From NCBI GenBank assembly GCA_005893305.1, contig VBOZ01000008.1, positions 139,172 through 203,171 on the forward strand: a DNA stretch of 64,000 nucleotides, read 5' to 3'. Positions within the stretch are counted from its first letter, which is position 1. Each line of letters starts with the position of its first letter. Of the stretch, positions 40,904 to 62,463 are shown piece by piece. Source of the DNA: Candidatus Eisenbacteria bacterium. GTDB taxonomy: Bacteria; Eisenbacteria; RBG-16-71-46; SZUA-252. The translations under genes were made by a program, and so were the position numbers. The notes below the pieces were generated by a model, which did not search any database, was not told the DNA's origin, and saw only the letters and a list, made by a program, of their open reading frames with translations.

Positions 40904-42562
40904 CTAGCCGTTTGAGGCGGTGGTTTCTCCGATGATCTTGGGCGTCAGGAAGATCAGGAGCTCGCGCTTCTGCCGCACCTTGGTCGACGTCCGGAACAGA
41001 TGCCCGATGATCGGGATGTCCATCAGGACCGGGACCCCGCGATTGTTGTCGCTCTCGTTGCTGCGGATCAGTCCGCCGATCACCGCCGTCTCGCCGTCGT
41101 TCACCATCACGCGCGTGTCGGCCATCGTCGTGTTGATGATGATGCCGCCCGCCACGGTCGCCTGGGACGAGAGGTCCGAGACCTCCGGGTGGACGTCCAT
41201 CGTGATCTTGTTGCCGACGTTGATGTGCGGCGTGACGCTGAGCTTGATCCCGATGGTCGTGAGCTGGGTGACCGCGTTCCCCGCGAAGTCCTGCACGATG
41301 AGCGGGATCTGCTGCCCCACGATCACGGTGGCCTCGCGGTTGTTCACGGTCGTGATTCTTGGATTCGAGATGATGTTGGCCTTGTTCGCGGCCTCCAGAG
41401 CATTCAGCGTCGCGTCCAGGCTGCCGAAGCTCTTCACCGTGCCGAACTTGACCGTCCCGGCCGGCCCCGTGACCGGATCCGGGGTGATGTGGACCGCCTC
41501 GTTCGCGCCGGCGTCGAAGACGTCGAGGTTCTCCAGGTTCCAGTTGATGCCCAGCGAGCGTGTCGCCGTGTGGTCCACGTCGACGAGGCGCGCCACGATC
41601 TCGACCTGCGGCGTGCGCGTGTCGAGGCTCCGGATCATCCCCTCCGCCCGGTCCAGCCGGTCGTCGATGTCGGTGACGAGGAGGGCGTTCGTGCGGGCGT
41701 CGACTTCGATGTGGCCTCGCTTCGTCAGCGTCTTCTCGACCGCCTTGGACATCTCCTGCGCGTTCGCGTAGCTGATCGGGATGATCCGCGTCGAGAGCGG
41801 CAGGAGCTCCTCCTGCGCGCGCTCGGCCGCCCTCTTGTCCATCTCCTCCTTGCGGAGGGTGTCGAGATTCGAAATGATGATCGTCTGGCCGTTCTCGACC
41901 ATCCCGAGCCCCTGGGCCCGGAGGACGATGTCGAGCGCGTGGCGCCACGGCACGTTCCGCAACCGAAGGGTCACGGCCCCGGTCACTTCCTTGCTCGCGA
42001 CGATGTTCTTGCCGCTGAACTCGGAGAGGCTTCGCAGGACCGTCTGGATCTCGGCGCCCTGGACGTCCAGGGACATCCGGCGGTTGTCGGTCACCTCGGG
42101 TGACGGCGCGCTGCTTGTGGGCGCGGTCTCCGCCGGCGTCGCCGCCGGGCTTTCCACGGCCAGGATGACGCTGTTCCCCACGGCGCTCACGCCGTAGGAG
42201 GCAGGCTGCGCGAGATCCACGACGATCCTGGACCCCGTGTCCTTGCCCCAGCCCATTTCGGTCGCCCGCACCGACTTGACCGGCGAATTCTCCCGCCCGG
42301 CCCAGGTGCGCTCGGTGAATGCCAACGTCGTGCCCGGGCAATCGAGGACGATCCGGTCCGGCGACTCCAGGGTGAAATCGTGATAGTTGACGGGCGCGTC
42401 CGCTTCGACGATGACCTGGGTTCCGGTGCCCTGATCTTTGAGTGAAATGCTCTTCACCGTTGCTCCGAACGCCGGGACGGACGTGAGGAGTATTCCCGCC
42501 GCCAGCGCCGAAATCAGACCCGCGCGGCGACTCGTGCGATTCCCGCTATTTTCGAGTCGCAT
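40904..42562 (-). CDS. pilQ: type IV pilus secretin PilQ
   Basis: 552 residues from ATG 42562 (GAGGGTG upstream). Signal peptide to about residue 35, one AMIN domain (about 40-135), Ala/Pro/Thr linker, STN/secretin N domains (MSLDVQGAEIQTVLRSLSEF; TNALLVTDIDDRL), and a C-terminal secretin barrel with VPVLMDIPIIGHLFRT and LLIFLTPKI. It forms the outer-membrane channel for the pilus. Shorter than proteobacterial PilQ of about 700 residues because it has one rather than two AMIN domains. Last gene of pilMNOPQ. Confidence 0.95.
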   Translation of the reverse strand: MRLENSGNRTSRRAGLISALAAGILLTSVPAFGATVKSISLKDQGTGTQVIVEADAPVNYHDFTLESPDRIVLDCPGTTLAFTERTWAGRENSPVKSVRATEMGWGKDTGSRIVVDLAQPASYGVSAVGNSVILAVESPAATPAETAPTSSAPSPEVTDNRRMSLDVQGAEIQTVLRSLSEFSGKNIVASKEVTGAVTLRLRNVPWRHALDIVLRAQGLGMVENGQTIIISNLDTLRKEEMDKRAAERAQEELLPLSTRIIPISYANAQEMSKAVEKTLTKRGHIEVDARTNALLVTDIDDRLDRAEGMIRSLDTRTPQVEIVARLVDVDHTATRSLGINWNLENLDVFDAGANEAVHITPDPVTGPAGTVKFGTVKSFGSLDATLNALEAANKANIISNPRITTVNNREATVIVGQQIPLIVQDFAGNAVTQLTTIGIKLSVTPHINVGNKITMDVHPEVSDLSSQATVAGGIIINTTMADTRVMVNDGETAVIGGLIRSNESDNNRGVPVLMDIPIIGHLFRTSTKVRQKRELLIFLTPKIIGETTASNG

Positions 42563-43349
42563 TTCTGTCACCCTCTTTTGGTTTCAGTTGAATCGCCAAC
42601 GTCTGGGTCTCCCCGAAGGCGTTCTGCACCACCTGGATCTCGGACTTCGAGATCCCTGAGATGTAGCCGTTCACGACCGGGTCCCCGACGCGCAGTACAA
42701 ACCCATGTCCGCGGGTGTCCTCCACCAGCGCGAACTTGTCCGACGCGCCCCACATGATGCCCACCAGGTGTATGTCCCCGACGTCGACGAGAGAGCCGTC
42801 GCCCGACTGGGACTGGAACCTCCCGTCGAGAAGCGAGAGGAACGGATCGCGGCGGTTGCCGCTCGTATAGACGTACTGCTCGCGAGCGAAGAGGACGCTG
42901 GCGTCGAGTGATTTGGGTGTCTCCGTGACCACGCCGGCGGCGCCGGGCGTCGAGATGAGGCCGGCCGTCACCACCGTGGCGGCGCCCGTGCCGGCCACGG
43001 TCGCGGCGCCTGGCACCGCGGCCGAAGGAGCAACCAAGGGCGTGGCCGGACCTGGAATCGCCGCAGTCGGGGCCGGAACGGCGCCGGCAGGCGGCGGCAT
43101 CGGCGTGCGCTTCACCCAGTCCGGAGCGGGCGGCCCGTAGACCACCGGGGCTTTCATGACCGGGCGCGGAATCGCCACGGCGGCCGGCGATGTCGCGACC
43201 GTGGGCGTCTTCGGCGGCGTCATCGGATGCAGGACGAAGAAGAACACGCCCACGCCGATGAGGGCGACCACCAGAAGCAGGACGAGAAGGAAGATCCTGC
43301 TCTGGAAGAGCTTACTTTGCGGCAGCGCTAGGCTGCTTGGCAGGTTCAT
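42546..43349 (-). CDS. pilP: type IV pilus inner-membrane lipoprotein-like PilP
   Basis: 267 residues from ATG 43349 (overlaps pilO by 38 bases). One membrane helix (about 20-42), a long Pro/Ala/Gly/Val-rich linker (about 45-145), then a C-terminal PilP beta domain (RDPFLSLLDG, VGIMWGASDKFALVEDTRGHG, GDPVVNGYISGISKSEIQV). PilP links the PilN/PilO ring to PilQ. Here a transmembrane helix replaces the usual lipobox, as no Cys is seen at the N-terminus. Confidence 0.85.
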   Translation of the reverse strand: MNLPSSLALPQSKLFQSRIFLLVLLLVVALIGVGVFFFVLHPMTPPKTPTVATSPAAVAIPRPVMKAPVVYGPPAPDWVKRTPMPPPAGAVPAPTAAIPGPATPLVAPSAAVPGAATVAGTGAATVVTAGLISTPGAAGVVTETPKSLDASVLFAREQYVYTSGNRRDPFLSLLDGRFQSQSGDGSLVDVGDIHLVGIMWGASDKFALVEDTRGHGFVLRVGDPVVNGYISGISKSEIQVVQNAFGETQTLAIQLKPKEGDRNATRK

Positions 43350-43935
43350 TTGGTTTTCCCTCGGCCGTCGTTCCCTCGGCCAGCGTGTAGGCGGTCGCGA
43401 TGAAATCGGCCTGAACCGTCTCGTCCAGGTCCCCCTTGTCAAATCCCTTCAACCGAAGCTGGGAGACGTTCACCAACCGGGAAAGATCTGCGATCTCGCC
43501 GAAGAACGCGCCGGCGCGGTGGAAGCCGCCGGTCACCGAGACCTGCACGGGGTTCTCCGTGAAGTCCGTCCTCTTCGTGGGCTCCGCCGGCTTGAAGAGC
43601 AGGAACTTCACGCCCGCCTCCTGCCCGGCCATCGTGACCTTGCGGAGCAGGCTCGCGACTTCCTTTTGGGTCGGCAGGAGCTCCTGCGCGACCTGCCAGC
43701 GCTGGGTCAAGAGCGCGAACTCGCGCTTGAGCTCCGGGAGTCGGTTGACGAGCTGCTGCGCCTTCGTGAGCTCGTTCATGCACCGCGTATGCTCCGCCTT
43801 GAGGCGGCTGATCTCCTCCGCCCTGACCTTGTAATTGAACGGAACGAAATCGGCGAATATGTAGAAGTAGACGAGGGCCGCCGTGCCCGCCACGATCATG
43901 ATCAGCTTTTGAGTTTTCGGATCCTTGAGGTCCAT
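43312..43935 (-). CDS. pilO: type IV pilus assembly protein PilO
   Basis: 207 residues. Short cytoplasmic N-terminus, a membrane helix (LIMIVAGTAALVYFYIFADF), coiled coil, and the ferredoxin-like PilO domain (QVSVTGGFHRAGAFFGEIADL). It dimerises with PilN in the inner-membrane alignment complex. The start has GGGAGAGCG upstream; 24 bases after pilN. Confidence 0.92.
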   Translation of the reverse strand: MDLKDPKTQKLIMIVAGTAALVYFYIFADFVPFNYKVRAEEISRLKAEHTRCMNELTKAQQLVNRLPELKREFALLTQRWQVAQELLPTQKEVASLLRKVTMAGQEAGVKFLLFKPAEPTKRTDFTENPVQVSVTGGFHRAGAFFGEIADLSRLVNVSQLRLKGFDKGDLDETVQADFIATAYTLAEGTTAEGKPNEPAKQPSAAAK

Positions 43936-43959
43936 CGCTCTCCCCGCGCGTCGTCCTGA

Positions 43960-44511
43960 CTAGAGCGTCATCTTCGCGGTGATCGTGAACTTCACGACGT
44001 TCCGCTGATCGATCTGTCCCCGCTCCGCCACCACCAGGTCCACGTTGCCGTAGAGCGGCGACGCTTCGAGGCGGGACATGAGGTCGGCCACGAGCAGGTT
44101 CGAGAAGGTAACCCCCTCGATCTTCACCTGGTCGGGCCCGGTCTCTTCATAGTTGTTCAGCCAGAGGTGCTCCGGAACGCACCGCGACAGCTCGTCCACC
44201 AGCTTGACCCGCCAGAGACGGTTCTTGTCGAGGGTGGCGATGACGTCGAGCCGGTGCGTCAGCTCCTCGCGCTTCTTCGTCAGCTCGTTGATCATCTCGA
44301 TCTGGGGGCGAAGCTTCTCCGCCTCCTGCTGCGCCCGGGCGATGTCGGTCTTCAGGCGTCCGACCTGCATCGTCTGGATCAGGGCGAACGCCGCGAAGAG
44401 CAGTGCCACGAAAAGGAGCGCGAAGACGGGCATGAGCGCGCCCAGCTTCGGCAGCGCGATGTTGCGCTTCGCCTGTCGTTCTTCGCGTGGCAGCAGGTTG
44501 ATGCGGATCAT
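43960..44511 (-). CDS. pilN: type IV pilus assembly protein PilN
   Basis: 183 residues. The conserved cytoplasmic start IRINLLPREER binds PilM; a membrane helix (about 28-50), coiled coil, and a periplasmic PilN domain (WLNNYEETGPDQVKIEGVTF) follow. Nine bases after pilM, GGGGGA ribosome site. Confidence 0.94.
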   Translation of the reverse strand: MIRINLLPREERQAKRNIALPKLGALMPVFALLFVALLFAAFALIQTMQVGRLKTDIARAQQEAEKLRPQIEMINELTKKREELTHRLDVIATLDKNRLWRVKLVDELSRCVPEHLWLNNYEETGPDQVKIEGVTFSNLLVADLMSRLEASPLYGNVDLVVAERGQIDQRNVVKFTITAKMTL

Positions 44512-44520
44512 GGGTCCCCC

Positions 44521-45558
44521 TTATCGCAGCGCCAGGCCGATCGCGACCGTCAAGACCGGGGCCACGCTCTCCGGCGACTCGCCGCCGAAGAGACCCGGGT
44601 CGTAATTCAATTTCTGAATCGGGTTCACGACTTCCACGGGGACCTGATGCCGCGTGCGCAGGAACTCGACGAGGCCGGGCACCCGGGCGCTTCCCCCGGA
44701 GACGAAGATCCGGTCAATGCGATCGGCATCTCCGGCGGACTTGAGGAAGGCGACGGCGCGATCGATCTGCACCGAGACGTCCTCGCAGGTGGCCTGGACG
44801 ATCGCGGCGACGTCGATGCCGTTCTGCGCCCGCCCCCGAAGGGCGTTCTGCGCCTCCGCCTGGCTCACGTTGTGGCGCCGTTGGATCGCTTCCACGAAGG
44901 AGTTGGCGCCGAGGGAGAGGTCCTTGGTGAAGTGCGGGATCTGATCCCGGATGATGTTCAAGTTCGTGATCTCGGCCCCGATGTTGAGCAGCGCGACCGT
45001 CTCGCCGGGGGCCAGGTCGTACGCGGCCTCGACTGCGTTCTGGATCGCGAACGAGTCGACGTCGATGATGACCGGAGAGAGACCCGCCTCGCGGATGATC
45101 TCCGCGTGATTCGTGATCATCTCCTTCTTCGCGGCGACCAGGAGGACCTGCATCTTTTTCTGGTCCACGTCCGGATTGATGATCTGGAAGTCGAGGGAGA
45201 CGTCGTTGATGTCGTAGGGGACGTGCTGCTCCGCCTCCCACTGGATCGCCTCCTTGGCGTCCTCTTCGTTCAGGCGGGCCATGAGGATCTTCTTCACGAT
45301 CACGGCGCGCCCCGAGACGGCGGTCACGACGTTCTTGTTCCGGATCTGGCGGGATTCGAGGAGGTTCGTGATCGCCTCGTGCACCATCTGCCGGTCCATG
45401 ATCTCCCCGTCCACGATGGCTTCGGAGAGCGGCTCGGATATCCCGTAGTTGACCAGGCGATCCCCATAGCGGTCGTGCGCGATCTCGACGACCTTGATGG
45501 AGCTAGAGCCGATGTCGAGACCAATCGTGCTCTTCTTATTCTTGCCCAAGCCGAACAT
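44521..45558 (-). CDS. pilM: type IV pilus actin-like ATPase PilM
   Basis: 345 residues from ATG 45558 (GGAGCG upstream). Actin-like/FtsA fold: GLDIGSSSIKVVEI, NIGAEITNLNII, FVSGGSARVPGLVEFL. The cytoplasmic ring protein binds PilN and couples to the assembly motors. First gene of pilMNOPQ with a sigma-54 promoter about 75 bases upstream. Confidence 0.95.
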   Translation of the reverse strand: MFGLGKNKKSTIGLDIGSSSIKVVEIAHDRYGDRLVNYGISEPLSEAIVDGEIMDRQMVHEAITNLLESRQIRNKNVVTAVSGRAVIVKKILMARLNEEDAKEAIQWEAEQHVPYDINDVSLDFQIINPDVDQKKMQVLLVAAKKEMITNHAEIIREAGLSPVIIDVDSFAIQNAVEAAYDLAPGETVALLNIGAEITNLNIIRDQIPHFTKDLSLGANSFVEAIQRRHNVSQAEAQNALRGRAQNGIDVAAIVQATCEDVSVQIDRAVAFLKSAGDADRIDRIFVSGGSARVPGLVEFLRTRHQVPVEVVNPIQKLNYDPGLFGGESPESVAPVLTVAIGLALR

Positions 45559-45630: not shown

Positions 45631-45646
45631 AGCAAGTTCCATGCCA
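45631..45646 (-). promoter_or_regulatory. sigma-54 promoter of pilMNOPQ
   Basis: On the minus strand TGGCATGGAACTTGCT, an exact fit to the -24/-12 pattern TGGCAYR-N4-TTGCW. Expected transcript start about 12 bases downstream of the -12 GC, leaving a leader of roughly 60 bases to pilM. The remainder of 45559-45900 holds the divergent plus-strand promoter at 45824-45852 and no gene that I recognise. Confidence 0.75.
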
Positions 45647-48088: not shown

Positions 48089-49357
48089 CTACTGGTCGAT
48101 CCAGGAGGAGACCTCGTAGCCGGTCAGCGCCGCGAGCCGGCGGATCATCGCGCTCGAGTAGAGAATCCTGGTCCCCTCGGTCACCTCCGAACGACCGGTC
48201 AGCGTCCCCTGGATCAGCAGGGAGCCGAGGATCGTCGGCGCCGCGCCGCCGCCGTGGATCGTGGCGTCGCCGAGACAGATGATCATGCCGCTCCACCGTG
48301 CCTGCCCGCCCCAATCGAGATTCCCCCGCACGAGGAGAACCCCGGCTCCGGAGAGGCTGTCCGAGACGGAGAGGTCCCCTTCCACGTTCACGATCTTGAG
48401 GTTCTCGATCGAGCCCCACGATCCCGGTGGGGGGTCGCGCTGGTCTCCCGCCAGCGTCACGTCGGCGATCCGGCTCCACCCTTCGTCCATCGCCTGAAGA
48501 TCCAGATTCGTACTGGAGGAGGCGACGCTCGGGACGGCGCCGCTGCCCTTCACGCGCTGGGCTCTCGGACCGATCAGTTGAGCGGAGATCGCGTTCGGGT
48601 CGTTGGGCGAAGCGATCCCGGGGAGCGATGCCGCGTCCGCGACCGGCTCCCAGGGCGATTCGATCCCATGATCGCGCCCGTCGATCTGGAACCCGGCGCC
48701 GCGGAACGCCATGGTCCCCTCCGAATAGACCGCGGCCGGGACTGGCGGGAGCGGCCACTTGACGGCCTCCACCGTGACGATTCGTGTGTCGTGGCCGCTC
48801 GAGCCGGCGGCGGTCACGATGATCTTGGGCACGCCGCGGACCAGGTTCTCGCGAGGCGGCGTCGACGGATCGTCGTCGTCATCGCCGAACAGGACGACCT
48901 CGTTCGCGGCGTTCAGCTTGTATCGAACCTTCACCCACGGATAGTCGAGGCGATTCAATCCGGCCAGGCTGATCTGCCGGGATCCGGTCTCCGGGTAGTG
49001 CTCGCCGGCTTCGTCGACGGCGCCGTCCCCGTCGTTGTCGAGCCCATCGGTCGCCGGAACGTCGTGCTGCGGGTCGAGGCTCGAGGTCCCGGGCTGATTC
49101 ACGACGTAGCGGCCCCATCCCGGCGAGTAGCTGCCAGGGGGCTGGCCGATGTACTGCTCGCGGCCCGGGACCGACATCCGGGCCAGGACCTCGCTGAGGC
49201 CGGCCTGGGCGTTCTCGAACGCCTGGGTGCCGGACGCCGGATCGTCGACGCGCTGCTTGTCGCTCCGGGTGAGGGCCACGTACGAAATCCCGAGGGAGGT
49301 GAGGAGAAAGAGCACCAGGATGACCATCACCACGATGTTCCCCGTTCGTGCGCTCAC
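48089..49357 (-). CDS. PilX-like minor pilin/pilus assembly protein
   Basis: 422 residues from GTG 49357, which overlaps the preceding stop (GTGA). One N-terminal hydrophobic helix (RTGNIVVMVILVLFLLTSLG) preceded by Gly as for prepilin cleavage, but with no Glu at position 5. The large C-terminal part carries an Asp-rich calcium-like loop (DGLDNDGDGAVDEAGEH) and another Asp run (FGDDDDDPS), then a repetitive beta-rich region (NVEGDLSVSD, LLVRGNLDWGG). Its order with pilW- and fimT-like genes supports a PilX/PilK-like role at the pilus tip. Confidence 0.6.
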   Translation of the reverse strand: MSARTGNIVVMVILVLFLLTSLGISYVALTRSDKQRVDDPASGTQAFENAQAGLSEVLARMSVPGREQYIGQPPGSYSPGWGRYVVNQPGTSSLDPQHDVPATDGLDNDGDGAVDEAGEHYPETGSRQISLAGLNRLDYPWVKVRYKLNAANEVVLFGDDDDDPSTPPRENLVRGVPKIIVTAAGSSGHDTRIVTVEAVKWPLPPVPAAVYSEGTMAFRGAGFQIDGRDHGIESPWEPVADAASLPGIASPNDPNAISAQLIGPRAQRVKGSGAVPSVASSSTNLDLQAMDEGWSRIADVTLAGDQRDPPPGSWGSIENLKIVNVEGDLSVSDSLSGAGVLLVRGNLDWGGQARWSGMIICLGDATIHGGGAAPTILGSLLIQGTLTGRSEVTEGTRILYSSAMIRRLAALTGYEVSSWIDQ

Positions 49358-50139
49358 TGGACGTCCATCCCGGTCCACGGGGCGCTGCGCGGCACGACCG
49401 AGGCGGCGACCGTCGCGCGATCGTAATGGCCGCTCTCTAGATTTTTCTGCTTCGTCTCCGTCACCATGCTCACGATGACGGTCTTCACGCGTGGGGTGAC
49501 GCCTATGCCGGGTGGAACCCCGAGGTCGCCGCTCGACACCGTCTTGCCGAAGAAGACGCCGACCGGGTCGCTCTCCGCTCCCGGCCGGAGCTCGAGCGCG
49601 GCTCCCGCCGAGTCCCGATAGGAGAAGAGGGGAACGTCCCTCGTGCCCGCCGAGTCGCGGGACCGCTGGGTGAGGCCGAACGCGACGATCTCGCCGTGCC
49701 CCGAGACCGGGGTCGCCGTGGGGTCTCCATCGGCGCCGACCTCGCGTCGCAGGACGAAGTCGAAGGGGTTCGCGCTCGTCGTCGTGATGGGGTCGGAGGT
49801 GCTCGGATCGAGGAAGTACGTCACGACCTCTCCGGGGTCGATCCGGTGGTTGCCGTTCCGGTCCAGCGTGAACGTGACCCGGTACTGAGACCCGACCAGG
49901 ATCGACGGCTGAACGGCCGGATCGACCCCGTAGCCGGCGGAGCGCAGCTCCTGGACGATCAGGTCGACGCCGGTCCGGGCGTTCTGACTGGCCTCGGCCA
50001 GCTCCATTCCCAGCTCCACCGACCTCTCGCCGCGGACGTAGATCTCATAGAGAGAGCCCACGAAGAGACCGGAAAGCAGCACCGCGATCGTGGCCACGAC
50101 CAGGGTGGAACCCGTGCCTTCCCGCGGGGTCTCCGTCAT
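49354..50139 (-). CDS. PilW-like minor pilin
   Basis: 261 residues from ATG 50139, overlapping the fimT-like stop (ATGA). N-terminus MTETPREGTG then STLVVATIAVLLSGLFVGSL, a prepilin-type helix without the canonical FTLIE. VDLIVQELRSAGYG, typical of PilW proteins, follows. The C-terminal domain is soluble and beta-rich. Probably part of the minor pilin complex that primes assembly. Confidence 0.65.
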   Translation of the reverse strand: MTETPREGTGSTLVVATIAVLLSGLFVGSLYEIYVRGERSVELGMELAEASQNARTGVDLIVQELRSAGYGVDPAVQPSILVGSQYRVTFTLDRNGNHRIDPGEVVTYFLDPSTSDPITTTSANPFDFVLRREVGADGDPTATPVSGHGEIVAFGLTQRSRDSAGTRDVPLFSYRDSAGAALELRPGAESDPVGVFFGKTVSSGDLGVPPGIGVTPRVKTVIVSMVTETKQKNLESGHYDRATVAASVVPRSAPWTGMDVQ

Positions 50140-50645: not shown

Positions 50646-50693
50646 ACTTTCTCCCATGGATTCCGGAGGCCGTGGCCGCGCGGACCGCGCGCC

Positions 50694-52908: not shown

Positions 52909-53918
52909 TCGTTCCCTTTCCCGCGGCTCAGCGCGCGGACGAAGTGCTCCTCGAGCGTCTCCCTCCGCGGCTCGACCGAATGGATGAATACCTCGCTCTG
53001 CGTCAGGAGTCCCAAGGCCCGCTGCAGAGCGGGGCCTTCCACGACGTGGATCAGCCAGCGCGTCCCGAGCGGCTCCACGCGATGCCCGGCCGCGCTGAGC
53101 TCGGCGGCCGCGCGCTCCGGCAGCGACTCCACGGCGATCTCCCATTCGCGGACGCCGGTCGCGAGAAGGCCCGGCACCGTGCCGACCTCGAGCAGCTTGC
53201 CGCCGCTCATGATGCCGACCCGGTCGCAGATCGACTCCGTCTCGGCGAGCACGTGGCTCGACATGAGAATCGTCGTGCCCCGCGTGCGCTCCTCGCGCAG
53301 GATCTGCTTCACCTCCGCGCGCCCGATCGGGTCGAGGCCCGACATCGGCTCGTCCAGGACCAGAAACGTGGGCTCGTTCAGGAGCGCCTGCGCGAGCCCG
53401 AGCCGCTGGGTCATTCCCTTCGAATATTTCCGGAGCGGCTTCCGGGCGTGCGCCGCGAGCCCGAGACGCTCGAGCAGCGTCGCGCCCGTCCGCCGCCCGG
53501 CTCGCGCGTCCAGGCCGAAGAGGGCGCACGTGAGCTCGAGATACTCGGTGGCGGTCAGGTGGTCGTAGAAACACGGGTTCTCCGGGAGATAGCCGAGCCG
53601 CCGGCGCGCCTCAGGGTCGCGCGGGTCGCGGCCGTCGAGGCGGATCATGCCCCGCGTCGGCTTGGCCAGCCCCAGGATCAACTTGATCGTGGTCGTCTTC
53701 CCGGCGCCGTTGGGGCCGAGGAGCCCGAAGATCTCGCCGCGCCCCAGCGTGAACGAGAGGCCGTTCACGGCAGTGAACGGCTTCAAGGTCATCGGATCCC
53801 GATAGACCTTTGCGAGTCCTTCCACTTCCAAGAGGGCGAGCGGCTCCACTTCCCGGATCGACCCCGTCGGTGCCGGCGCGACGCGGCCCGCTTGATTGAC
53901 GTTCTCCCGCTGCGTCAT
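52905..53918 (-). CDS. ABC transporter ATP-binding protein (PilH-like by position)
   Basis: 337 residues from ATG 53918 (GTG 53951 is possible). Walker A GPNGAGKTT, Q-loop YLPENPCFYD, signature YSKGMTQR, Walker B FLVLDEPMSGLDP, H-loop MSSHVLAE, then a C-terminal regulatory region of about 80 residues. Energises the adjacent permease. Separated from pilA by a strong terminator, so it probably has its own promoter or depends on read-through. Confidence 0.87.
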   Translation of the reverse strand: MTQRENVNQAGRVAPAPTGSIREVEPLALLEVEGLAKVYRDPMTLKPFTAVNGLSFTLGRGEIFGLLGPNGAGKTTTIKLILGLAKPTRGMIRLDGRDPRDPEARRRLGYLPENPCFYDHLTATEYLELTCALFGLDARAGRRTGATLLERLGLAAHARKPLRKYSKGMTQRLGLAQALLNEPTFLVLDEPMSGLDPIGRAEVKQILREERTRGTTILMSSHVLAETESICDRVGIMSGGKLLEVGTVPGLLATGVREWEIAVESLPERAAAELSAAGHRVEPLGTRWLIHVVEGPALQRALGLLTQSEVFIHSVEPRRETLEEHFVRALSRGKGNE

Positions 53919-53966: not shown

Positions 53967-54007
53967 CCCACGGTTTCACCGTGGGCAAGAGCCATGCCAG
54001 GGCTCTT
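53967..54007. repeat. two small hairpins between pilA and the ABC genes
   Basis: CCCACGG-TTTCA-CCGTGGG (53967-53985) and AAGAGCC-ATGCCAG-GGCTCTT (53987-54007), both perfect 7-bp stems, one base apart, without T-runs. They lie just past the pilA terminator on the minus strand and may stabilise or process the transcript end. Confidence 0.6.
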
Positions 54008-54035: not shown

Positions 54036-54078
54036 AAAAAAGAAAGGCGGCGGATCCGATGGTCCGGAATCCGCCGCC
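54036..54078 (-). terminator. Rho-independent terminator of the pilA operon
   Basis: On the minus strand GGCGGCGGATTCCG, short loop, CGGATCCGCCGCC then TTTCTTTTTT: a 13-bp GC-rich stem with a T-run, 18 bases after the last pilA stop. Textbook form; it sets pilA expression apart from the downstream ABC genes. Confidence 0.92.
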
Positions 54079-54095: not shown

Positions 54096-54503
54096 TTAGC
54101 CGTTGGTCAAGGACAGCGACAGAAGCGCCGTCTTGCCAAAGCCCTGAATCGTGTAGCCGGTCGTCGACACCACGGTCGTGCCATAGCGACCCTGAGCGGC
54201 CGGGGCCACCCACAGCGCAGCCTCGTCCACCACGCCGGTGAACGGGTTGGTCGGATACGTGCCGCTCGGCATGTTCGCCTTCACGGCCGCAGCGTCCGCC
54301 GCCACCGGGTACGTACCCGTGTTCTTCACGGCGAAGTCTTCGATCGCGAGCTGGAAGCTGTGCATGTTCGCCTTCACGCTCGCCTCACGGGCCCGGTTCT
54401 GCATCGCGATGAAGTTCGGAATCGCGATTGCCGCAAGGATCCCGATGATGACAACCACGATCATGAGCTCGATGAGGGTGAAGCCCTTCTCGTTGCGAAA
54501 CAT
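54096..54503 (-). CDS. pilA: type IV major pilin paralog 1
   Basis: 135 residues from ATG 54503 (AAGGAGA upstream). Six-residue leader ending in Gly, then FTLIELMIVVVIIGILAAIA with Phe1 and Glu5 of the mature pilin. The short C-terminal domain has no Cys pair and ends in LSLTNG. About three quarters identical to the neighbouring paralog, differing mostly in the C-terminal third. Structural subunit of the pilus fibre. Second gene of the two-pilin operon. Confidence 0.93.
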   Translation of the reverse strand: MFRNEKGFTLIELMIVVVIIGILAAIAIPNFIAMQNRAREASVKANMHSFQLAIEDFAVKNTGTYPVAADAAAVKANMPSGTYPTNPFTGVVDEAALWVAPAAQGRYGTTVVSTTGYTIQGFGKTALLSLSLTNG

Positions 54504-54531
54504 GGTAGTTCTCCTTTCGTGTGCGCCATCC

Positions 54532-54942
54532 TTAGCCATTGGTGAGTTGGAGCCCCAACAGGGCCGCCTTACCGTAGCCCTTGATGGTGTAGCTGCTGGT
54601 GGTAACCGGATTCGCGCCGTAGCGCCCTGGCGCCGCCGGATCGGCACCCCAGAGCGCGGCCTCGTCCACAACGCCGGTGAACGGGTTGGTAGGAAACGTG
54701 CCGCTCGGCATGTTCAACTTCACGGCTGCCGCGTCCGCCGCCACCGGATAGACGCCTGCGGTCTTGGTGGCGAAGTCTTCGATCGCGAGCTGGAAGCTGT
54801 GCATGTTCGCTTTCACGCTAGATTCGCGTGCGCGGTCCTGCATCGCGATGAAGTTCGGGATCGCAATCGCCGCGAGAATTCCGATGATGACGACCACGAT
54901 CATCAGCTCGATCAGCGTGAACCCCTTTGTATTCTTGAGCAT
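54532..54942 (-). CDS. pilA: type IV major pilin paralog 2
   Basis: 136 residues (GGGAGGT nine bases upstream). Leader MLKNTKG, cleaved before FTLIELMIVVVIIGILAAIA. YPVAADAAAVKLNMPSG and NPFTGVVDEAALWG are shared with the paralog; the surface segment PAAPGRYGANPVTTSS differs. First gene behind the sigma-54 promoter, so probably the better expressed copy. Confidence 0.93.
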   Translation of the reverse strand: MLKNTKGFTLIELMIVVVIIGILAAIAIPNFIAMQDRARESSVKANMHSFQLAIEDFATKTAGVYPVAADAAAVKLNMPSGTFPTNPFTGVVDEAALWGADPAAPGRYGANPVTTSSYTIKGYGKAALLGLQLTNG

Positions 54943-55014: not shown

Positions 55015-55030
55015 AGCAACGTCTGTGCCA
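55015..55030 (-). promoter_or_regulatory. sigma-54 promoter of the pilA pair
   Basis: On the minus strand TGGCACAGACGTTGCT, matching TGGCACR-N4-TTGCW with consensus spacing and followed by TTTT. It lies 73 bases before the first pilA ATG. The adjacent pilR encodes the expected NtrC-type activator. Confidence 0.85.
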
Positions 55031-55203: not shown

Positions 55204-56586
55204 CTACAGCTCCGCTTCGATGCCGTCCTTCTCTTGAACCAGGCCGTAGGAGAGAAGCTTTCGGTAGAGCGTGGAGGGGTTGATCCCCAGGATCTCCGAG
55301 GCCCGCTTTTTCTGTCCGCTCGTATGGTGGAGCACCTTCATGATGTACTCCCGCTCGAGCTCGTCGAGCGTCATGGTCGGATTGTCGATCACGAGGCTCC
55401 CGCGCCCCTTGTTGCCCTGGAGCACCCGCTCCGGTAGATCCTCGGGAGTGATCACGCCGTTTTCCGTCAGGATCACCGCCCGCTCGATCACGTTTTCCAG
55501 CTCCCGCACGTTGCCCGGCCAGTCGTACGCGAGCAGCGCGTCGCGGGTCTCCTTGTTGAGCGTCTTGGGCTCCTTGCCGACGGTCAGCTTTTTCAGGAAG
55601 TGCTCGACCATCTCCTCGATGTCTTCCTTCCGCTCCCGAAGGGCCGGCAAGCGGATCTGGATCACGTTGAGCCGGTAGAAGAGGTCCGCCCGGAAGCGGT
55701 TCTCCGAGACCGCCCGCTCGAGATCGGCGTTCGTCGCGGCGATGAGCCTCACGTCGATCTTGCGCGGCTTGGTTCCCCCGACGGGGATGATCTCCCGCTC
55801 CTGAAGCGCCCGGAGCAGCTTGACCTGCGTCGCGGGCAGCGTCTCTCCCACTTCGTCCAGGAAGAAGGAGCCGCCGCCGGCCACCGCGAGGAGTCCCTCC
55901 TGGTCTCGCACCGCCCCCGTGAAGGAGCCCTTCACGTGACCGAACAGGTTCGACTCGAGCAAATCTTTAGGGAGCGCCCCGCAGTTGATCGAGACGAACG
56001 GGCCGTCGGCCCGCAGGCTCAGGTAGTGGATCCGCTTCGCGATCAGCTCTTTCCCGGTGCCGCTCTCCCCGACGATCAGGATCGTCGAGTCGGAATCAGC
56101 CACCTTCTCCACGAGCTTCAGGACCTTCTGGATCTGCTCGCTGTGGCCGATGATCTCCTTCGTGTCGTCGGTTTTCTTCAGCTGGCGCTTCAGGAGGACG
56201 TTCTCCGACTGAACGCGCCGCATCGCGAGCGCGTTCTTGATGACCAGCCGGATCTCGTCGTTCTTGGCGCTCTTCTCGAGGTACTGGAAGGCGCCCCGGT
56301 TCAGGGCGTCGATCGCCGATTTCTGGGAAGCGAATGCCGTTCGGATGACAACCGGGATGCTCGAGTCGATCTTCTTGACGCCGGAAAGGACCCCGAGTCC
56401 GTCAATCTCGCCGGGCATCTTGATGTCGGTGACCACGACGTCGAAATTCTCCTCCTCCGCCTTCTGCAGGGCATCCCGGCCGGAGCGGGCCACGTGTACC
56501 TCGTAGCCCTCCTTGGAGAGGAGGATCGAGAGAAACTGAACCATGCTCTCTTCGTCGTCTACGATCAGGATCTTCTCGCCGGCCAC
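55204..56586 (-). CDS. pilR: NtrC-family sigma-54 response regulator PilR
   Basis: 460 residues. Receiver domain (ILIVDDEESM, phospho-Asp in VVVTDIKMPG), AAA+ domain with Walker A GESGTGKE, the sigma-54 contact loop as GSFTGA (usual GAFTGA), Walker B GGSFFLDEVGE, and a Fis-type HTH (KKRASEILGINPSTLYRKL). It activates sigma-54 promoters; the pilA, pilM and pilB promoters here are likely targets. Directly after pilS. Confidence 0.94.
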   Translation of the reverse strand: MAGEKILIVDDEESMVQFLSILLSKEGYEVHVARSGRDALQKAEEENFDVVVTDIKMPGEIDGLGVLSGVKKIDSSIPVVIRTAFASQKSAIDALNRGAFQYLEKSAKNDEIRLVIKNALAMRRVQSENVLLKRQLKKTDDTKEIIGHSEQIQKVLKLVEKVADSDSTILIVGESGTGKELIAKRIHYLSLRADGPFVSINCGALPKDLLESNLFGHVKGSFTGAVRDQEGLLAVAGGGSFFLDEVGETLPATQVKLLRALQEREIIPVGGTKPRKIDVRLIAATNADLERAVSENRFRADLFYRLNVIQIRLPALRERKEDIEEMVEHFLKKLTVGKEPKTLNKETRDALLAYDWPGNVRELENVIERAVILTENGVITPEDLPERVLQGNKGRGSLVIDNPTMTLDELEREYIMKVLHHTSGQKKRASEILGINPSTLYRKLLSYGLVQEKDGIEAEL

Positions 56587-56611: not shown

Positions 56612-58369
56612 TTACGCCGCGTGCGCGACGCTTCGCGCCGGATTGTCGGCCTGCGGCAACCACAGACGCATCGTGGTCCCCTCACCGATCCGGCTCTCGA
56701 CCTCAAAGTTTCCGCCATGGCGCTCTACGATCCGGTTGGCGATCGCCAGACCCAGACCGGTCCCGCCCTGCTTCGTTGAGAAAAACGGCTCGAATACCTG
56801 CGCGACGTCCTTGTCGCCGATCCCCGTCCCCGTGTCCGCGACTTCCATCACGACGCGCGGCCCCCCCGCTCGTCCCCAGGCGCCGGGCGTCCGCCGCTCT
56901 TCGCGGATCCGCACCGTCACGTTGCCCGTTCCCTCGATGGCCTCGAAGGCGTTGATCAGGAGATTCGTCATCACCTGCTTCATCTGGTCGAAGTCCGCGC
57001 GGACCCAGACCGGCACGTTCGGACCCTCGAGCAAAACCTTCTTTCCCTTCCCGGCGCTTTCGTGCCGGCGCGCGATCTCGATCGATTCGGACGCCAGGGC
57101 CGCCAGCTCGACCTTCTCGGTCTTGAGCGGGCGCTCCCGCGCGTACTCGAGCAGCTCCGAGACGAACCGCTCGAGCCGCTCCGACTCCCGCACGACCAGG
57201 TCCAGGAGCCGCGCGTTCTCTCCCTCGACGTGGAGCTCCTTCTGAAGCACCTCGACCGAGCCGGTGATCGGGTTGAGACAGTTCCGGATCTCGTGCGCGA
57301 TGCCGGCCGAGAGCTCCCCGATCGCCGCCAGGGTCTCCCCGCGGCGGATGCGATCCTCGAGGGCCTTCACCTCCGAGAGATCCTGGAAGAGCGCGATCAC
57401 TCCGCGCCGCTCCCCGGATGCGCCCAGGAGAAGGCTCGTCGAGATTCCCAGCGGCACCGTTCGGCCGTTCGCGGTCAGCACCGTCACCTCGTATCGAGTC
57501 CCTTCCGTGCCCCGCTCCAACGCTTCACGGAGCCGTGTCGAGAACGCTTCGAGCCCCGGCCCGAACGTCTCCAGATAGTGGCGTCCTTGCACCGCCTTGG
57601 TCGGCACCGCCAGGATCTCGGATGCCGCCCGGTTCCAGTGCCGCACCGAGCCGCCTGCGTCGATCGTCGCGAGCCCGCTCGAGAGGTTCTCGAGAATCGT
57701 CTCCGTATCGAACAGTGCCCGGTTCAGCTGGGCCCGCGCCTCGTCCAGCGCCAGCCTGCCCTCGCGGAGCGACCGCCCGATCGCGCCGCCGATCGCCCCC
57801 ACGATGAAGAGGAGCGGCAGATACAGGATCAGACGGAGCCGGAGCGCCGGCTCGCTCAACCGCTCGGTCAGCCCGTACGCCATCGGCGGCACCATCCCGC
57901 CGACCTCGGCCACGTAGAACGCTCCGTACGCCAACCCGGCCGCGGCCGCGAAGAGGAGCCCGCCCCTCACGGTGAGAAAGATCCCGCCCATCAGAGGCGC
58001 CAGCAGGAAGAGCGGCGCGAACTGGCTGGACGTCCCCCCGGTGAAGAGGAGGAGATACGAGATCACCGCGACGTCGACCAGGAACTGCGTCGTGAGAAGG
58101 GCGTTCACCTCCGCCCCGCTCTTCGCCGCGTGGTGGTACGCCACGGCCAGCCCCGCCGAGAGCGCCACCAAGAACACGAACGGGTAATGCCGAGTCAGGC
58201 TCAGGCCGGTGTCCGAGAACGCGACGGCCATCGCGGCCACCAGCGTGATGAGCGCCATGCGGCCGAGAATGACCGCCTTCACCGCCTCGCGAAGCCGCGG
58301 TTCCCCATCCGCCTTCGTTGTCGGGCCGGATCCGGCCTGCGGGCGACTATTTCCCCCCAGCGACCACAT
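56612..58369 (-). CDS. pilS: sensor histidine kinase PilS
   Basis: 585 residues. Six hydrophobic helices (about 35-190), a PAS domain (about 225-335), HisKA with GIAHEIRNCLNPITG (intact His), and an ATPase domain with NLLINAFEAIEG, DTGTGIG and GGTGLGLAIANRIVERHGG. It phosphorylates PilR, in other bacteria in response to pilin level in the membrane. Overlaps the end of pilC by 23 bases; a later start is possible. Confidence 0.92.
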   Translation of the reverse strand: MWSLGGNSRPQAGSGPTTKADGEPRLREAVKAVILGRMALITLVAAMAVAFSDTGLSLTRHYPFVFLVALSAGLAVAYHHAAKSGAEVNALLTTQFLVDVAVISYLLLFTGGTSSQFAPLFLLAPLMGGIFLTVRGGLLFAAAAGLAYGAFYVAEVGGMVPPMAYGLTERLSEPALRLRLILYLPLLFIVGAIGGAIGRSLREGRLALDEARAQLNRALFDTETILENLSSGLATIDAGGSVRHWNRAASEILAVPTKAVQGRHYLETFGPGLEAFSTRLREALERGTEGTRYEVTVLTANGRTVPLGISTSLLLGASGERRGVIALFQDLSEVKALEDRIRRGETLAAIGELSAGIAHEIRNCLNPITGSVEVLQKELHVEGENARLLDLVVRESERLERFVSELLEYARERPLKTEKVELAALASESIEIARRHESAGKGKKVLLEGPNVPVWVRADFDQMKQVMTNLLINAFEAIEGTGNVTVRIREERRTPGAWGRAGGPRVVMEVADTGTGIGDKDVAQVFEPFFSTKQGGTGLGLAIANRIVERHGGNFEVESRIGEGTTMRLWLPQADNPARSVAHAA

Positions 58370-59570
58370 TGATCAGCTTGAACATCGGCAGATACATGGC
58401 GACGACCATGCCGCCGATCACCGAGCCCATGAAGATGATCATCATCGGCTCGATCAGCGAGGTGAGCGAGTCGACCGCGGTATCCACCTCGTCGTCGTAG
58501 AAGTCGGCGATGCGAGTCAGCATGTCGTCCAGCGCTCCGGTCTCCTCGCCAACGGAGATCATCTGCACCACCATCGGCGGGAAGACGTTCGATTGACGGA
58601 GCGGGGCGGAGATCGTCTCCCCTTCGCGGATGCTCGCGCGCGCGGCCATGATCGCTTCCTGAATCACCCGGTTGCCCGCGGTCCTCGCGGTGATCTCGAG
58701 GCCGGTCAAGATCGGGACGCCCGAGGAGATCAGCGTGCCCAGCGTCCGCGTGAACCGCGCCACGGCCCCCTTCCGGAGAACGTCGCCGAGCACGGGCAGC
58801 CCGAGGAGAAACTTGTCGATCTGGAAATGCCCCCCCTCGGTGGCGTAGTAGCGCCGGAGCCCGACGGTCACGCCGATGATTCCGCCGAGAAGCATCCACC
58901 AGTACCCGCGGAGAAAGTCCGAGAGCATCATCACGATCTTCGTCGGGAGGGGCAGATCGCCGCCGAAGGCGACGAAGATCTTGGCGAAGGTGGGGATGAT
59001 GAAGATGAGCATGAAGGTCGTGGCCAGACACGCGACGGTCATGACCACGGCCGGATAGACCATCGCGCCCTGGACCTTCCGGCGCAGCGCCTCCGCCTTC
59101 TCGATGAAGGTCGCGAGCCGCTGGAGGATGTCGTCCAAAATACCTCCCGCTTCGCCCGCTTCGACCATGTTCACGAACAGCTCGTCGAACGCGTCCTTGT
59201 TCTCCTTCTTCGCGAGCGCCTCGGCCAGCGTAGTGCCCGCCTCGACGTCGCGCATCGTCTGACCGATGATGGTCCGGAACGTTGCCTGCTCGGTCTGCTT
59301 GGAGAGGATGTCGAGGCACTGGACCAGGGGAAGCCCCGCGTTGATCATCGTCGCGAACTGGCGCGTGAAGATCGCCAGATCCCGCGTGCTCACGACCGGG
59401 CCGAATTGGGGGATGTTGAGCTTGATCTCCCCCCGCTTCTCGCGAACCGACGTGACGATGATCCGCTTCTTCCGGAGCGCGGAGAGCGCCTCGTCCTGGG
59501 AGTCGGTCGTGACCTCCCCGGTCTGGATCTCTCCCGCTAGGGTCCGGCCTTTCCAAACGTAAACGGGCAC
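58347..59570 (-). CDS. pilC: type IV pilus inner-membrane platform protein PilC
   Basis: 407 residues. Two GspF/PilC repeats (FTRQFATMINAGLPLVQCLDI; FTRTLGTLISSGVPILTGLEI), each ending near membrane helices, and the terminal LIEPMMIIFMGSVIGGMVVAMYLPMF. It is the rotor on which PilB and PilT act. 21 bases after pilT. Confidence 0.96.
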   Translation of the reverse strand: MPVYVWKGRTLAGEIQTGEVTTDSQDEALSALRKKRIIVTSVREKRGEIKLNIPQFGPVVSTRDLAIFTRQFATMINAGLPLVQCLDILSKQTEQATFRTIIGQTMRDVEAGTTLAEALAKKENKDAFDELFVNMVEAGEAGGILDDILQRLATFIEKAEALRRKVQGAMVYPAVVMTVACLATTFMLIFIIPTFAKIFVAFGGDLPLPTKIVMMLSDFLRGYWWMLLGGIIGVTVGLRRYYATEGGHFQIDKFLLGLPVLGDVLRKGAVARFTRTLGTLISSGVPILTGLEITARTAGNRVIQEAIMAARASIREGETISAPLRQSNVFPPMVVQMISVGEETGALDDMLTRIADFYDDEVDTAVDSLTSLIEPMMIIFMGSVIGGMVVAMYLPMFKLINVVAGGK

Positions 59571-59591
59571 GACGATTCCCCCTTGGCTCCG

Positions 59592-60674
59592 CTAGTAGGC
59601 GTTGATGTTGACGCCGACCTTCTCGAGCATGCCTTCGAGCTCCTTCACGTCGGAGCTGCGTCCCAGCGCCTCGTCCAGCGAGATGTGCTTGTTCGTGTAC
59701 GCCTGGAAGAGACCCTGGTTCATCGTCTGCATTCCGTGCTTCGTTCCGGCCTGCATGAGGCTGTAGATCTGGTGCGTCTTCCGCTCCCGGATGACCGCCC
59801 GAACGGCCGGCGTGCAGAGAAGCATCTCGGCCACCATCACGCGGCCGGGACCCTTCGCTCTCGGAATGAGCTGCTGTGTGATCACCGCCTCGAGAACGAA
59901 GGCGAGCTGCGAGAGCACCTGCTGCTGCTGGCCCGATGGAAACGCGTCGACCATTCGGTTGATCGATTCGTACGCGGAGTTCGTATGCAGGGTCGCGAGG
60001 ACCAGATGACCCGTCTCGGCGATCGTCAGGGCCGCGGCGATCGTCTCCAGATCGCGCATTTCTCCGATCAGAATCACGTCGGGATCCTGACGGAGGACGT
60101 ACTTGAGAGCCGTGGCGAAGGTGGTCGTGTCGGAGTTGATCTCGCGCTGGTGGACGATGCACTTCTTGTGGTGATGGACGTACTCGATCGGATCCTCGAT
60201 CGTGATGATGTGCCCCGCCCTCGTGGTGTTGATCAGGTCGATCATCGCCGCGAGCGTGGTCGATTTGCCGCTTCCGGTCGGGCCCGTGACGAGGATGAGC
60301 CCCTTCTGCTTCAGCGTGAGATCCCGGATCACCTTCGACAGACCCAGCGTCTCGCAGGAGAGGATCTCGTACGGAATCTGGCGAATGGCCACCGAGGTGA
60401 CCCCGCGCTGGAGGTAGACGTTCGCGCGAAACCGGCTCAGGCCGGGCACTCCGAACGAGAGATCCAGCTCCTTGGTCGTTTCGAACCGCTTCCGCTGCTC
60501 TTCCGTGAGCACGCTGTACGCCAGCTGCTGCGTGAGCTGCGGCGTGAGAGGCGGGTGCGCCATCGGCAGGATCGAGCCGTCGATGCGGACCTGGGGCGGA
60601 ACTCCGGCGGAAATATGAAGATCCGAGGCCCTCATCTTGATCATCTCGTCCAGCAGTTGACGCAATGAAACCAT
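59592..60674 (-). CDS. pilT: pilus retraction ATPase PilT
   Basis: 360 residues. MRASDLHISAG, Walker A GPTGSGKST, ITIEDPIEYVHHHKKCIVHQRE (Asp box), GEMRDLETIAAALTIAETGHLV (Walker B) and the C-terminal AIRE-like motif region. It depolymerises pili, driving twitching and DNA uptake. Between pilB and pilC. Confidence 0.96.
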   Translation of the reverse strand: MVSLRQLLDEMIKMRASDLHISAGVPPQVRIDGSILPMAHPPLTPQLTQQLAYSVLTEEQRKRFETTKELDLSFGVPGLSRFRANVYLQRGVTSVAIRQIPYEILSCETLGLSKVIRDLTLKQKGLILVTGPTGSGKSTTLAAMIDLINTTRAGHIITIEDPIEYVHHHKKCIVHQREINSDTTTFATALKYVLRQDPDVILIGEMRDLETIAAALTIAETGHLVLATLHTNSAYESINRMVDAFPSGQQQQVLSQLAFVLEAVITQQLIPRAKGPGRVMVAEMLLCTPAVRAVIRERKTHQIYSLMQAGTKHGMQTMNQGLFQAYTNKHISLDEALGRSSDVKELEGMLEKVGVNINAY

Positions 60675-60708
60675 GTTTTCCTCCCTGACGCGGAGCGCTC
60701 CGGCGCGG

Positions 60709-62463
60709 CTAGCGGTCGGCCGCGGTCTCCTTCAGCACTTCTTCGGCGGTCGTAATGCCATTCTTTAACTTGATTAGGCCATCCATTCGGAGCGTCAGCA
60801 TTCCCTCGGTCACCGCCTGCTTCTTGATCGTGCTGGTCGACGAGCGGTCGAGAATCATGTCGCGGATCTTGGGAGAGACCGGCATCACCTCGTAGACGCC
60901 GAGGCGTCCCTTGTATCCGGTGTTGTTGCAGTCGACGCAGCCTTTACCCTCTTTGAACGCCACCTTGCGGGCCTCCTCTTCGGGGATGCCCAGCTCCCGC
61001 AGGACCTCGGCGTGGAGCTTCACGTCCGACTTGCACGAGACGCAGACCTTGCGCAGGAGTCGCTGCGCCATGATGAGGTTCGTCGAGGACGCGACGAGGA
61101 ACGGCTCGATCCCCATGTCGATCATTCGGTTGATCGTCGAGGGGGCGTCGTTGGTGTGGAGGGTGGAGAGGACCAGGTGGCCCGTGAGAGCCGCCTTGAC
61201 CGCGATCGATCCCGTATCGATGTCCCGGATTTCTCCCACCATGATGATGTTGGGGTCCTGTCGCAGGAACGCGCGCAGGGCCGCCGAGAAGGTCAAGCCG
61301 ACCGCCTCGTTCACGAGGACCTGGTTGATCCCTTCCAGGTTGTACTCGACCGGGTCCTCGGAGGTCATGATGTTGACCTCGGGCTGGTTGATCTTGGAGA
61401 GCGCCGAGTAGAGCGTCGTCGTCTTTCCGCTTCCGGTCGGGCCCGTGACGAGCACCATCCCGTACGGCTGCGCGATCGCGTGCGTGAACTCCTTGAGCGC
61501 CGACTCCTGGAACCCGAGCTTGTTGAGATCGATGTTCAGGTTCCCCTTGTCGAGAATTCGCATCACGACCTTCTCTCCGTAGATCGTCGGAAGGCTCGAG
61601 ACGCGGAGATCGATGGAGCGGCCGAGGAGGCGCAGCTTGATGCGGCCGTCCTGAGGGACCCGGCGCTCGGCGATGTCCAGATCGGCCATGATCTTGAGAC
61701 GCGAGGTGATCGCGGCCTTCATCCGGAACGGCGGCGACATCATCTCGTAGAGGGTGCCGTCGATCCGGAAGCGGACGCGCAGGGTCCGCTCGTAGGGCTC
61801 GATGTGGATGTCGCTCGCTCCCTTGCGGACCGCGTCCGAGATGAGCGAGTTGACCAGTTTGACGACGGGGGCCTGCTCCGCTTCTCCGAGGAGGGCGACA
61901 TCCGGCGTGTCGTCGACCGTCTCCTCGATGACCTCGATCTCGTCTTCCATCCCCCGCATCACGGTCTCGAAGCTGGCAGCCGAGTCGTACGCCTTGTCGA
62001 TGGCCTTCTTGATCGCCGACTCCGACGCGACGCACGGCTGCACCTCGCATCCGGTGATGAACTTGATGTCGTCGAGCGCGAAGATGTTCGATGGATTCGC
62101 CATCGCGACCGTGAGGCGGCGGCCGGTCCGGGAAACGGGGACGACCTGGAACTTGTTCGCGACGTCGCCGGGGATGAGCTTCACCACGGCGGGGTCCGGC
62201 GCGAAATTGGTCAGGTCGACGGCGGGCACGCCGTATAGCTCGGAGAGGAACTTGGAGAGGTCGTCTTCCTTGACGGCGCCGAGCTTGATGAGGGCGGACA
62301 TGAGGTTGCCGCCGCCGGTCTTGACCTGAAGCTGGGCTTTCTGCAGCGCCTCAGGCGTGATGACGTGTGCTTCCAGCAGCTTGAGGCCTATGTTTTCCTG
62401 CTGCACGTTTCCGGCCCTCGATGTCGATGCTTGCGTGGAGGCGAGTTCCCGTGATGGAGGCAT
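60709..62463 (-). CDS. pilB: pilus extension ATPase PilB
   Basis: 584 residues. N-terminal MshEN domain (LLEAHVITPEALQKAQL), Walker A GPTGSGKTT, ILTSEDP-type IMTSEDPVEYNLEG, GEIRDIDTGSIAVKAALTGH, and a tetra-Cys zinc site (CVSC ... CVDC). It powers pilus polymerisation. Start ATG 62463 has no clear ribosome site; GTG at codon 20 is possible. A sigma-54 promoter lies right upstream. Confidence 0.95.
   Translation of the reverse strand: MPPSRELASTQASTSRAGNVQQENIGLKLLEAHVITPEALQKAQLQVKTGGGNLMSALIKLGAVKEDDLSKFLSELYGVPAVDLTNFAPDPAVVKLIPGDVANKFQVVPVSRTGRRLTVAMANPSNIFALDDIKFITGCEVQPCVASESAIKKAIDKAYDSAASFETVMRGMEDEIEVIEETVDDTPDVALLGEAEQAPVVKLVNSLISDAVRKGASDIHIEPYERTLRVRFRIDGTLYEMMSPPFRMKAAITSRLKIMADLDIAERRVPQDGRIKLRLLGRSIDLRVSSLPTIYGEKVVMRILDKGNLNIDLNKLGFQESALKEFTHAIAQPYGMVLVTGPTGSGKTTTLYSALSKINQPEVNIMTSEDPVEYNLEGINQVLVNEAVGLTFSAALRAFLRQDPNIIMVGEIRDIDTGSIAVKAALTGHLVLSTLHTNDAPSTINRMIDMGIEPFLVASSTNLIMAQRLLRKVCVSCKSDVKLHAEVLRELGIPEEEARKVAFKEGKGCVDCNNTGYKGRLGVYEVMPVSPKIRDMILDRSSTSTIKKQAVTEGMLTLRMDGLIKLKNGITTAEEVLKETAADR

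Follow-up and report, generated by a model that had tools for sequence, protein, structure and literature searches.

A type IV pilus locus from Candidatus Eisenbacteria very probably encodes PilG-PilH-PilI, a system that recurs across phyla

Judging from homology and gene order, three adjacent genes in a type IV pilus locus of a Candidatus Eisenbacteria bacterium almost certainly encode the pilus biogenesis system PilG-PilH-PilI. The genes specify an ATP-binding cassette (ABC) ATPase, an ABC-2 permease, and a tetratricopeptide repeat (TPR)-like protein, and they occupy positions 53918 to 51467 of a 64-kb window (the whole stretch of DNA that was analyzed) from a 2.75-Mb draft genome that is 96% complete. 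Around them, positions 40904 to 62463 of the minus strand hold a complete type IVa (T4a) pilus locus in the order pilB-T-C-S-R-A1-A2, ABC ATPase, ABC-2 permease, TPR-like gene, pilD, three minor-pilin-like genes, and pilM-N-O-P-Q. The system is a member of a known, mechanistically unexplained kind; new here are the identification of PilG, the breadth of the trio across phyla, the sigma-54 regulon, and the likeness to NosFY. On balance, and with moderate confidence, we favor the combination of this identity with the mechanism set out below as the overall explanation.

Profile comparison and synteny identify the TPR-like protein as a homologue of PilG itself. When a profile built purely from Eisenbacteria proteins was aligned with one built purely from Myxococcaceae-type PilG, the probability was 99.6% (hhalign, E=3.6e-24, 176 columns). 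With the PilG-family profile, matches at E<=1e-3 turned up in 167 of the 174 Myxococcota genomes, and about 158 were strong (E<1e-13). The TPR gene of a Myxococcales bin (L102) sits between pilA and the permease gene, the place that PilG occupies. Four Myxococcota genomes of 9.0 to 9.5 Mb read pilB/T-C-S-R-A-TPR-ATPase-permease-D-S2-R2-M-N-O as far as the fetched stretch extends, in agreement with the pilA-G-H-I operon of Myxococcus xanthus (MXAN_5783-5780; PMC3546991). One of these four, L146, which supplies the Myxococcus-type PilH, has a PilA that exceeds the Myxococcus PilA equivalog cutoff (410 versus 400 bits). The original prediction had suggested that the TPR-like gene might be the transporter's third part; the suggestion is borne out and sharpened to a PilG homologue. 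Neither Pfam nor NCBIfam has a dedicated PilG model; a minority of the family touches generic TPR entries.

The AlphaFold2 model of PilG (mean predicted local distance difference test [pLDDT], 92.8) comprises an N-terminal helix (residues 2 to 34) and a TPR-like helical solenoid. All 52 aligned members carry a single N-terminal hydrophobic segment and none carries a lipobox, so the protein is consistent with a membrane-anchored periplasmic TPR protein. These features also bear on whether it could be a secretin pilotin of the PilF/PilW/Tgl type that merely neighbors the ABC genes. The TPR fold would fit such a protein, and PilF and PilW were among the generic TPR proteins matched by the model in Foldseek, but pilotin identity was rejected because the lipobox is missing and the protein is not among the matches over the TIGR02521 (pilW) cutoff. 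It also stays with the ABC pair through changes of gene order, and we regard a pilotin as very unlikely.

The long PilG forms have a C-terminal extension (about 40 residues), which in a genome-wide comparison matched two Acidobacteria pseudopilins (E=1.5e-5 and 1.8e-4). In both pseudopilins (L209:802-1323 and L210:394-825) it is the central segment that matches, and one of the two has a sub-threshold T2SSG match in Pfam. Comparison of the segment with local pilins was not significant (hhalign, 1.5%), and the window PilG (224 amino acids [aa]) does not have it; the pilin-like segment is therefore treated as a lead only.

The ATPase and permease group with PilH and PilI, as had been predicted. 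The Walker A, signature, Walker B, and H-loop motifs of the window ATPase are intact, and its top match was the pil-linked copy in 5/5 genomes compared from four other phyla (Acidobacteria, WOR-3, Krumholzibacteriota, Anaeromyxobacter-like, and Myxococcus-like), each with 28 to 85 ABC matches. In the ATPase tree, 44 pil-linked ATPases, including the Myxococcus-type PilH of L146, and one Myxococcus paralogue (L172) fell into one clade (97/94), with 21 paralogues outside. The window permease is the sole match in its own genome, and the permease profile matched the permease in 20/20 fetched Myxococcota loci. A generic multidrug or ABC-2 exporter captured by chance in a pil locus would fit the matches of the ATPase to DrrA/GldA-type models, which lie under the model cutoffs. 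Cross-phylum synteny, the clade, cooccurrence, and shared sigma-54 sites all speak against chance capture; the ATPase tree and synteny refute a generic drug exporter, whose probability we consider negligible. L172 (G153:C1:5026351, Myxococcus-like) and L173 (G041:C38:193144, Acidobacteria) each combine a PilH-like ATPase with a PilI-like permease, without PilG and away from the pil locus; they are paralogous ABC pairs.

The pair had also been expected to persist in related pil loci, and it recurs in the Eisenbacteria, in other named genomes, and in Myxococcota. The TPR protein was found in 34/40 genomes of its own phylum. Its presence tracks pilM: PilG occurs in 34/35 own-phylum genomes with a true pilM versus 0/5 without one (Fisher p = 9e-6), and five of the six TPR-less genomes also have no true pilM (best matches, 1.6e-9, 9e-16, 1e-26, 9e-29, and 2e-4, versus <1e-68 elsewhere). 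The ATPase-permease-TPR order is kept in all 28 own-phylum loci where the stretch covers the three genes (30 loci fetched), and these trios adjoin pilD and/or pilM. A scan of named genomes by motif and tblastn yielded 65 loci in Eisenbacteria, WOR-3, Krumholzibacteriota, Gemmatimonadota, Acidobacteria, and one Myxococcales bin. Other pil genes lie in the fetched flank (E<1e-4) at 58/65 of these, the H-I-G order holds in 58/60 complete trios, and where an upstream pil gene was detected (39 loci), the nearest was pilA in 31. Chance is excluded by the order kept in these 58 of 60 named and 28 same-phylum loci. All 20 Myxococcota regions fetched contain TPR, ATPase, and permease genes alongside pilA. 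Variants of the order are G-H-I in Myxococcaceae, G-I with a divergent H in Anaeromyxobacter-like genomes, and I-G-H in one Blastocatellia locus. That the trio remains together despite these changes argues for a single functional unit. Since members differ in gene order, G-H-I describes M. xanthus without defining the family. In the literature collection searched, PilH-type genes were not described for the pil loci of Acidobacteria or Gemmatimonadetes. Four records carry labels that conflict with their sequence placement and are probably mislabelled bins: L101, labelled "Bifidobacterium breve," groups with Acidobacteria; L103, labelled "Latescibacterota," is 64 to 90% identical to the window genes; and L072 and L096, labelled "Eisenbacteria," group with Gemmatimonadota.

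The trio is also linked to the pilus genes by candidate regulatory sites. The exact sigma-54 core pattern (TGGCAYN5TTGC) occurs four times in the window versus 0.08 expected, in every case on the minus strand and immediately upstream of pilB, pilA1, the ABC ATPase, or pilM. Genome-wide there are 21 exact sites, and the presence of four within the 21.6-kb pil stretch is improbable by chance (Poisson p = 2.7e-5). The relaxed pattern (two mismatches) showed no overall enrichment, so the argument leans on the exact sites. Upstream of the ABC ATPase, more than 10 relatives have similar sites (at least 9 of 10 positions), versus 0/2000 random 350-nucleotide (nt) window stretches. A hairpin with a T-run separates the ABC genes from pilA, and a sigma-54-like site of their own precedes the ATPase, so they do not simply run on from pilA. 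The hairpin has a bulged stem and was for that reason missed by a simple terminator scan; sigma-54 sites lie outside the scope of the promoter scan. The exact sites, the rpoN gene found in the genome, the NtrC-type PilR, and the hairpin after pilA2 together lead to the prediction that the ABC operon probably belongs, as a unit of its own, to the PilR regulon shared with the other pil units. Of the remaining 17 sites in the genome, two (G000:C8:81193-81207 and C33:150082-150096) lie just upstream of further PilB/PilT-like ATPase genes, which suggests that this regulon includes additional genes for pili or secretion.

Structural comparison points to a remote relationship of PilHI with the NosFY pair of NosDFY. 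The NosDFY system links ATP hydrolysis to a partner protein in the periplasm during maturation of the copper site of nitrous oxide reductase. The PilI model (pLDDT 90.4) is all helical and about 256 aa long; its first eleven Foldseek matches in the PDB were NosY (template modeling [TM] score, 0.60 to 0.71), and NosY was the sole match of the PilI profile to PDB sequences, over the full length (E=2.3e-8). The window ATPase matched ABCA lipid transporters and NosF in the PDB, NosF being the top match among small bacterial ATPases. In M. xanthus, deletion of pilG, pilH, or pilI abolishes pili, and the exopolysaccharide defect of such mutants is suppressed by a PilB Walker-A mutation, as in pilA mutants and unlike in pilC or pilM-Q mutants (PMC3724824). 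This pilA-like suppression places PilGHI at the pilin-supply stage. Together with the NosFY likeness and the anchored TPR domain, it makes a force-transmitting ABC module that moves PilG the most economical model.

According to this model, H-I-G would have a sigma-54 promoter of its own, predicted to depend on PilR, from which pilD and the minor-pilin-like genes would also be transcribed. A type-V (NosFY-like) ABC module would be built from two copies each of the PilH ATPase and the PilI permease, and PilG, anchored by its one N-terminal helix, would present its TPR domain in the periplasm as the output part. PilG would receive the ATP-driven movement of PilHI; it may bind inner-membrane pilins or minor pilins and offer them to the PilB/PilC machine, with little or no export needed. 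Whereas homology, synteny, the coregulation signal, and the predicted fold are direct results, we infer the dimer stoichiometry, the periplasmic orientation, pilin as the client, and the transmission of force. The mechanistic part, PilHI as an ATP-driven inner-membrane device that moves PilG to handle pilins, is a tentative proposal to which we give somewhat less than even weight. A stronger form would have the trio work across phyla as a mechanotransmission machine of NosDFY type without any export. In it, ATP would move the membrane-anchored TPR protein, which has a pilin-like C-terminal segment in many lineages, to extract or present pilins as an extra, hitherto unrecognized T4a assembly step absent from Pseudomonas/Neisseria models; this form is conceivable and rather doubtful.

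Two export schemes compete with this model. According to the original prediction, the cargo of this transporter is not known in any system; the step is indeed unproven, but export of pilin (PilA) had already been proposed for M. xanthus (cited in PMC3724824 and PMC3924187). In that scheme PilGHI would be a genuine exporter, taking prepilin or pilin across the inner membrane or into it. The scheme is favored by the resemblance of the M. xanthus pilGHI mutants, which have no pili, to pilA mutants (PMC3724824), by its listing in a transporter survey (PMC3924187), and by the frequent position of pilA as the nearest upstream pil gene. PilI, however, is a small all-helical ABC-2 permease that matches NosY and not a protein-conducting exporter. 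In other systems, pilins are inserted by the signal recognition particle (SRP)/Sec route, in which no ABC transporter is known to take part. PilA export by PilGHI appears unlikely. Equally improbable in our estimate is export or flipping by PilHI of a lipid, a glycan, or a small molecule that the pilus needs in order to function (pilin modification is one example), with PilG as periplasmic acceptor. The ABC-2 class of the permease would suit this role, as would the ABCA phospholipid transporters that are the top PDB match of the ATPase, but it is pil genes that accompany the trio across phyla in the loci examined. Furthermore, no conserved biosynthetic gene was noticed beside the trio, although no systematic search for one was made, and the glycosyltransferase-like open reading frame (ORF) of the window lies on the opposite strand and has no Pfam family match.

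Several points weigh against the NosFY-like device. ABCA lipid flippases outscore NosF as matches of the window ATPase, the similarity to NosY is remote (about 18 to 20% identity), and the folds of the two partners, TPR in PilG and beta-helix in NosD, are unrelated. For the comparison with PilGHI, Myxococcaceae-like genomes stood in for the M. xanthus proteins (O30384-6). The absence of the pilin-like segment from the window PilG means that this segment cannot be essential, and trios that adjoin pilM instead of pilD in other families weaken the pilin-supply reading. Finally, the function proposed here is read from the genes of an uncultured organism.

M. xanthus pili have been known since 1998 to require PilGHI, an orphan requirement that still has no established mechanism. 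With PilG as a TPR family that has no model, a trio in at least six phylum-level groups, and the likeness to NosFY, the mechanism becomes directly testable, and many genes in pil loci now listed as "ABC transporter" or "hypothetical" gain an annotation.

Every gene of the predicted set was present on the strand and in the order claimed, as judged from NCBIfam/Pfam matches and position (Table 1). The tight coupling claimed from the ATPase through the minor pilins held in part. Start and stop codons overlap at ATPase/permease (ATGA, 52908-52905), permease/TPR (GTGA, 52141-52138), TPR/pilD (GTGA, 51470-51467), GspH-like/PilW-like (ATGA, 50139-50136), and PilW-like/PilX-like (GTGA, 49357-49354), but a 36-nt gap separates pilD and the GspH-like gene. 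Likewise, the pil genes form a minus-strand run, but it is interrupted before pilM by an unrelated plus-strand ORF (45901-48075) of 724 codons, encoding a polytopic glycosyltransferase-like membrane protein, between the minor-pilin-like genes and pilM. The two pilA genes (54096-54942) form a tandem of closely similar copies; tandem pilA genes likewise occur in Stigmatella and Pelobacter (PMC6060248).

Table 1. Features of the pil locus in the window, with the basis of each assignment
Feature	Coordinates	Strand	Basis
sigma-54 core site upstream of pilB	62486..62500	-	exact pattern
pilB, T4a pilus extension ATPase	60709..62463	-	TIGR02538, 753 bits, above cutoff 675.65
pilT, retraction ATPase	59592..60674	-	TIGR01420, 484 bits, above cutoff
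pilC, platform protein	58347..59570	-	top NCBIfam match NF052606 (Myxococcus-type PilC), 487 bits, below cutoff 700
pilS, sensor kinase	56612..58369	-	histidine kinase models and position
pilR, NtrC-family sigma-54 activator	55204..56586	-	NtrC/AtoC-type models
sigma-54 core site TGGCACAGACGTTGC upstream of pilA1	55016..55030	-	exact pattern
pilA1, major-pilin-like	54532..54942	-	N_methyl above cutoff; top NCBIfam NF041775 PilA_Myxo, 62 bits, below cutoff
pilA2, second major-pilin-like copy	54096..54503	-	NCBIfam search
terminator-like hairpin and T-run after pilA2	54036..54078	-	sequence; fold z = -2.1
sigma-54 core site TGGCATGGCTCTTGC upstream of ABC operon	53985..53999	-	exact pattern
pilH homologue, ABC ATPase	52905..53918	-	PF00005, catalytic motifs, pil-linked clade, top matches pil-linked
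pilI homologue, ABC-2 permease	52138..52908	-	PF12679; profile and fold match to NosY
pilG homologue, N-terminal membrane anchor and TPR domain	51467..52141	-	profile comparison, synteny, model
pilD, prepilin peptidase	50694..51470	-	PF06750 and PF01478
GspH/FimU-like minor pilin	50136..50657	-	PF12019
PilW-like minor pilin	49354..50139	-	position and N-terminus only; 0 Pfam/NCBIfam matches
PilX-like protein	48089..49357	-	position and N-terminus only; 0 informative Pfam/NCBIfam matches
sigma-54 core site upstream of pilM	45632..45646	-	exact pattern
pilM	44521..45558	-	TIGR01175, 238 bits, above cutoff
pilN	43960..44511	-	PF05137, above Pfam cutoff
pilO	43312..43935	-	PF04350, above Pfam cutoff
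pilP-like	42546..43349	-	position and sequence
pilQ secretin	40904..42571	-	TIGR02515, 340 bits, above cutoff; PF00263

Among known systems, the GldAFG gliding transporter shares the ABC-2 class and a motility role, and the GldA model matches the window ATPase at 168 bits; that score is far under the GldA cutoff (402.6), and there is no GldG-type partner here. The PilF/PilW/Tgl pilotins share the TPR fold and the type IV pilus context, whereas the window protein differs in the lipobox and TIGR02521 results given above and in being tied to an ABC pair. M. xanthus PilGHI (MXAN_5782-5780, TC 3.A.1.144.5) has the same three families, the same placement between pilA and pilD, the same pilB-T-C-S-R-A start, and an NtrC-type PilR with a sigma-54 site at pilA. 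It differs in its G-H-I order (H-I-G here), in joint pilAGHI transcription (PMC3546991) versus a separate sigma-54-like site and a hairpin after pilA2 here, and in a PilG of about 300 aa versus the 224-aa protein here, which has no C-terminal pilin-like segment; the window locus has two pilA copies and no pilS2R2 before pilM. NosDFY, a copper-site maturation complex (PMC11573801, PMC7558416), resembles the trio in that PilI is nearest to NosY by profile and fold, PilH is near NosF, and one partner gene lies beside the ABC genes in both. The partner is the TPR protein PilG here versus the beta-helix NosD there, the neighbors are pil genes versus nosZ/nosL, and the clients are presumably pilins versus NosZ/NosL. 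The similarity is remote, and PilHI is a relative of the NosFY pair, not a member of that system.

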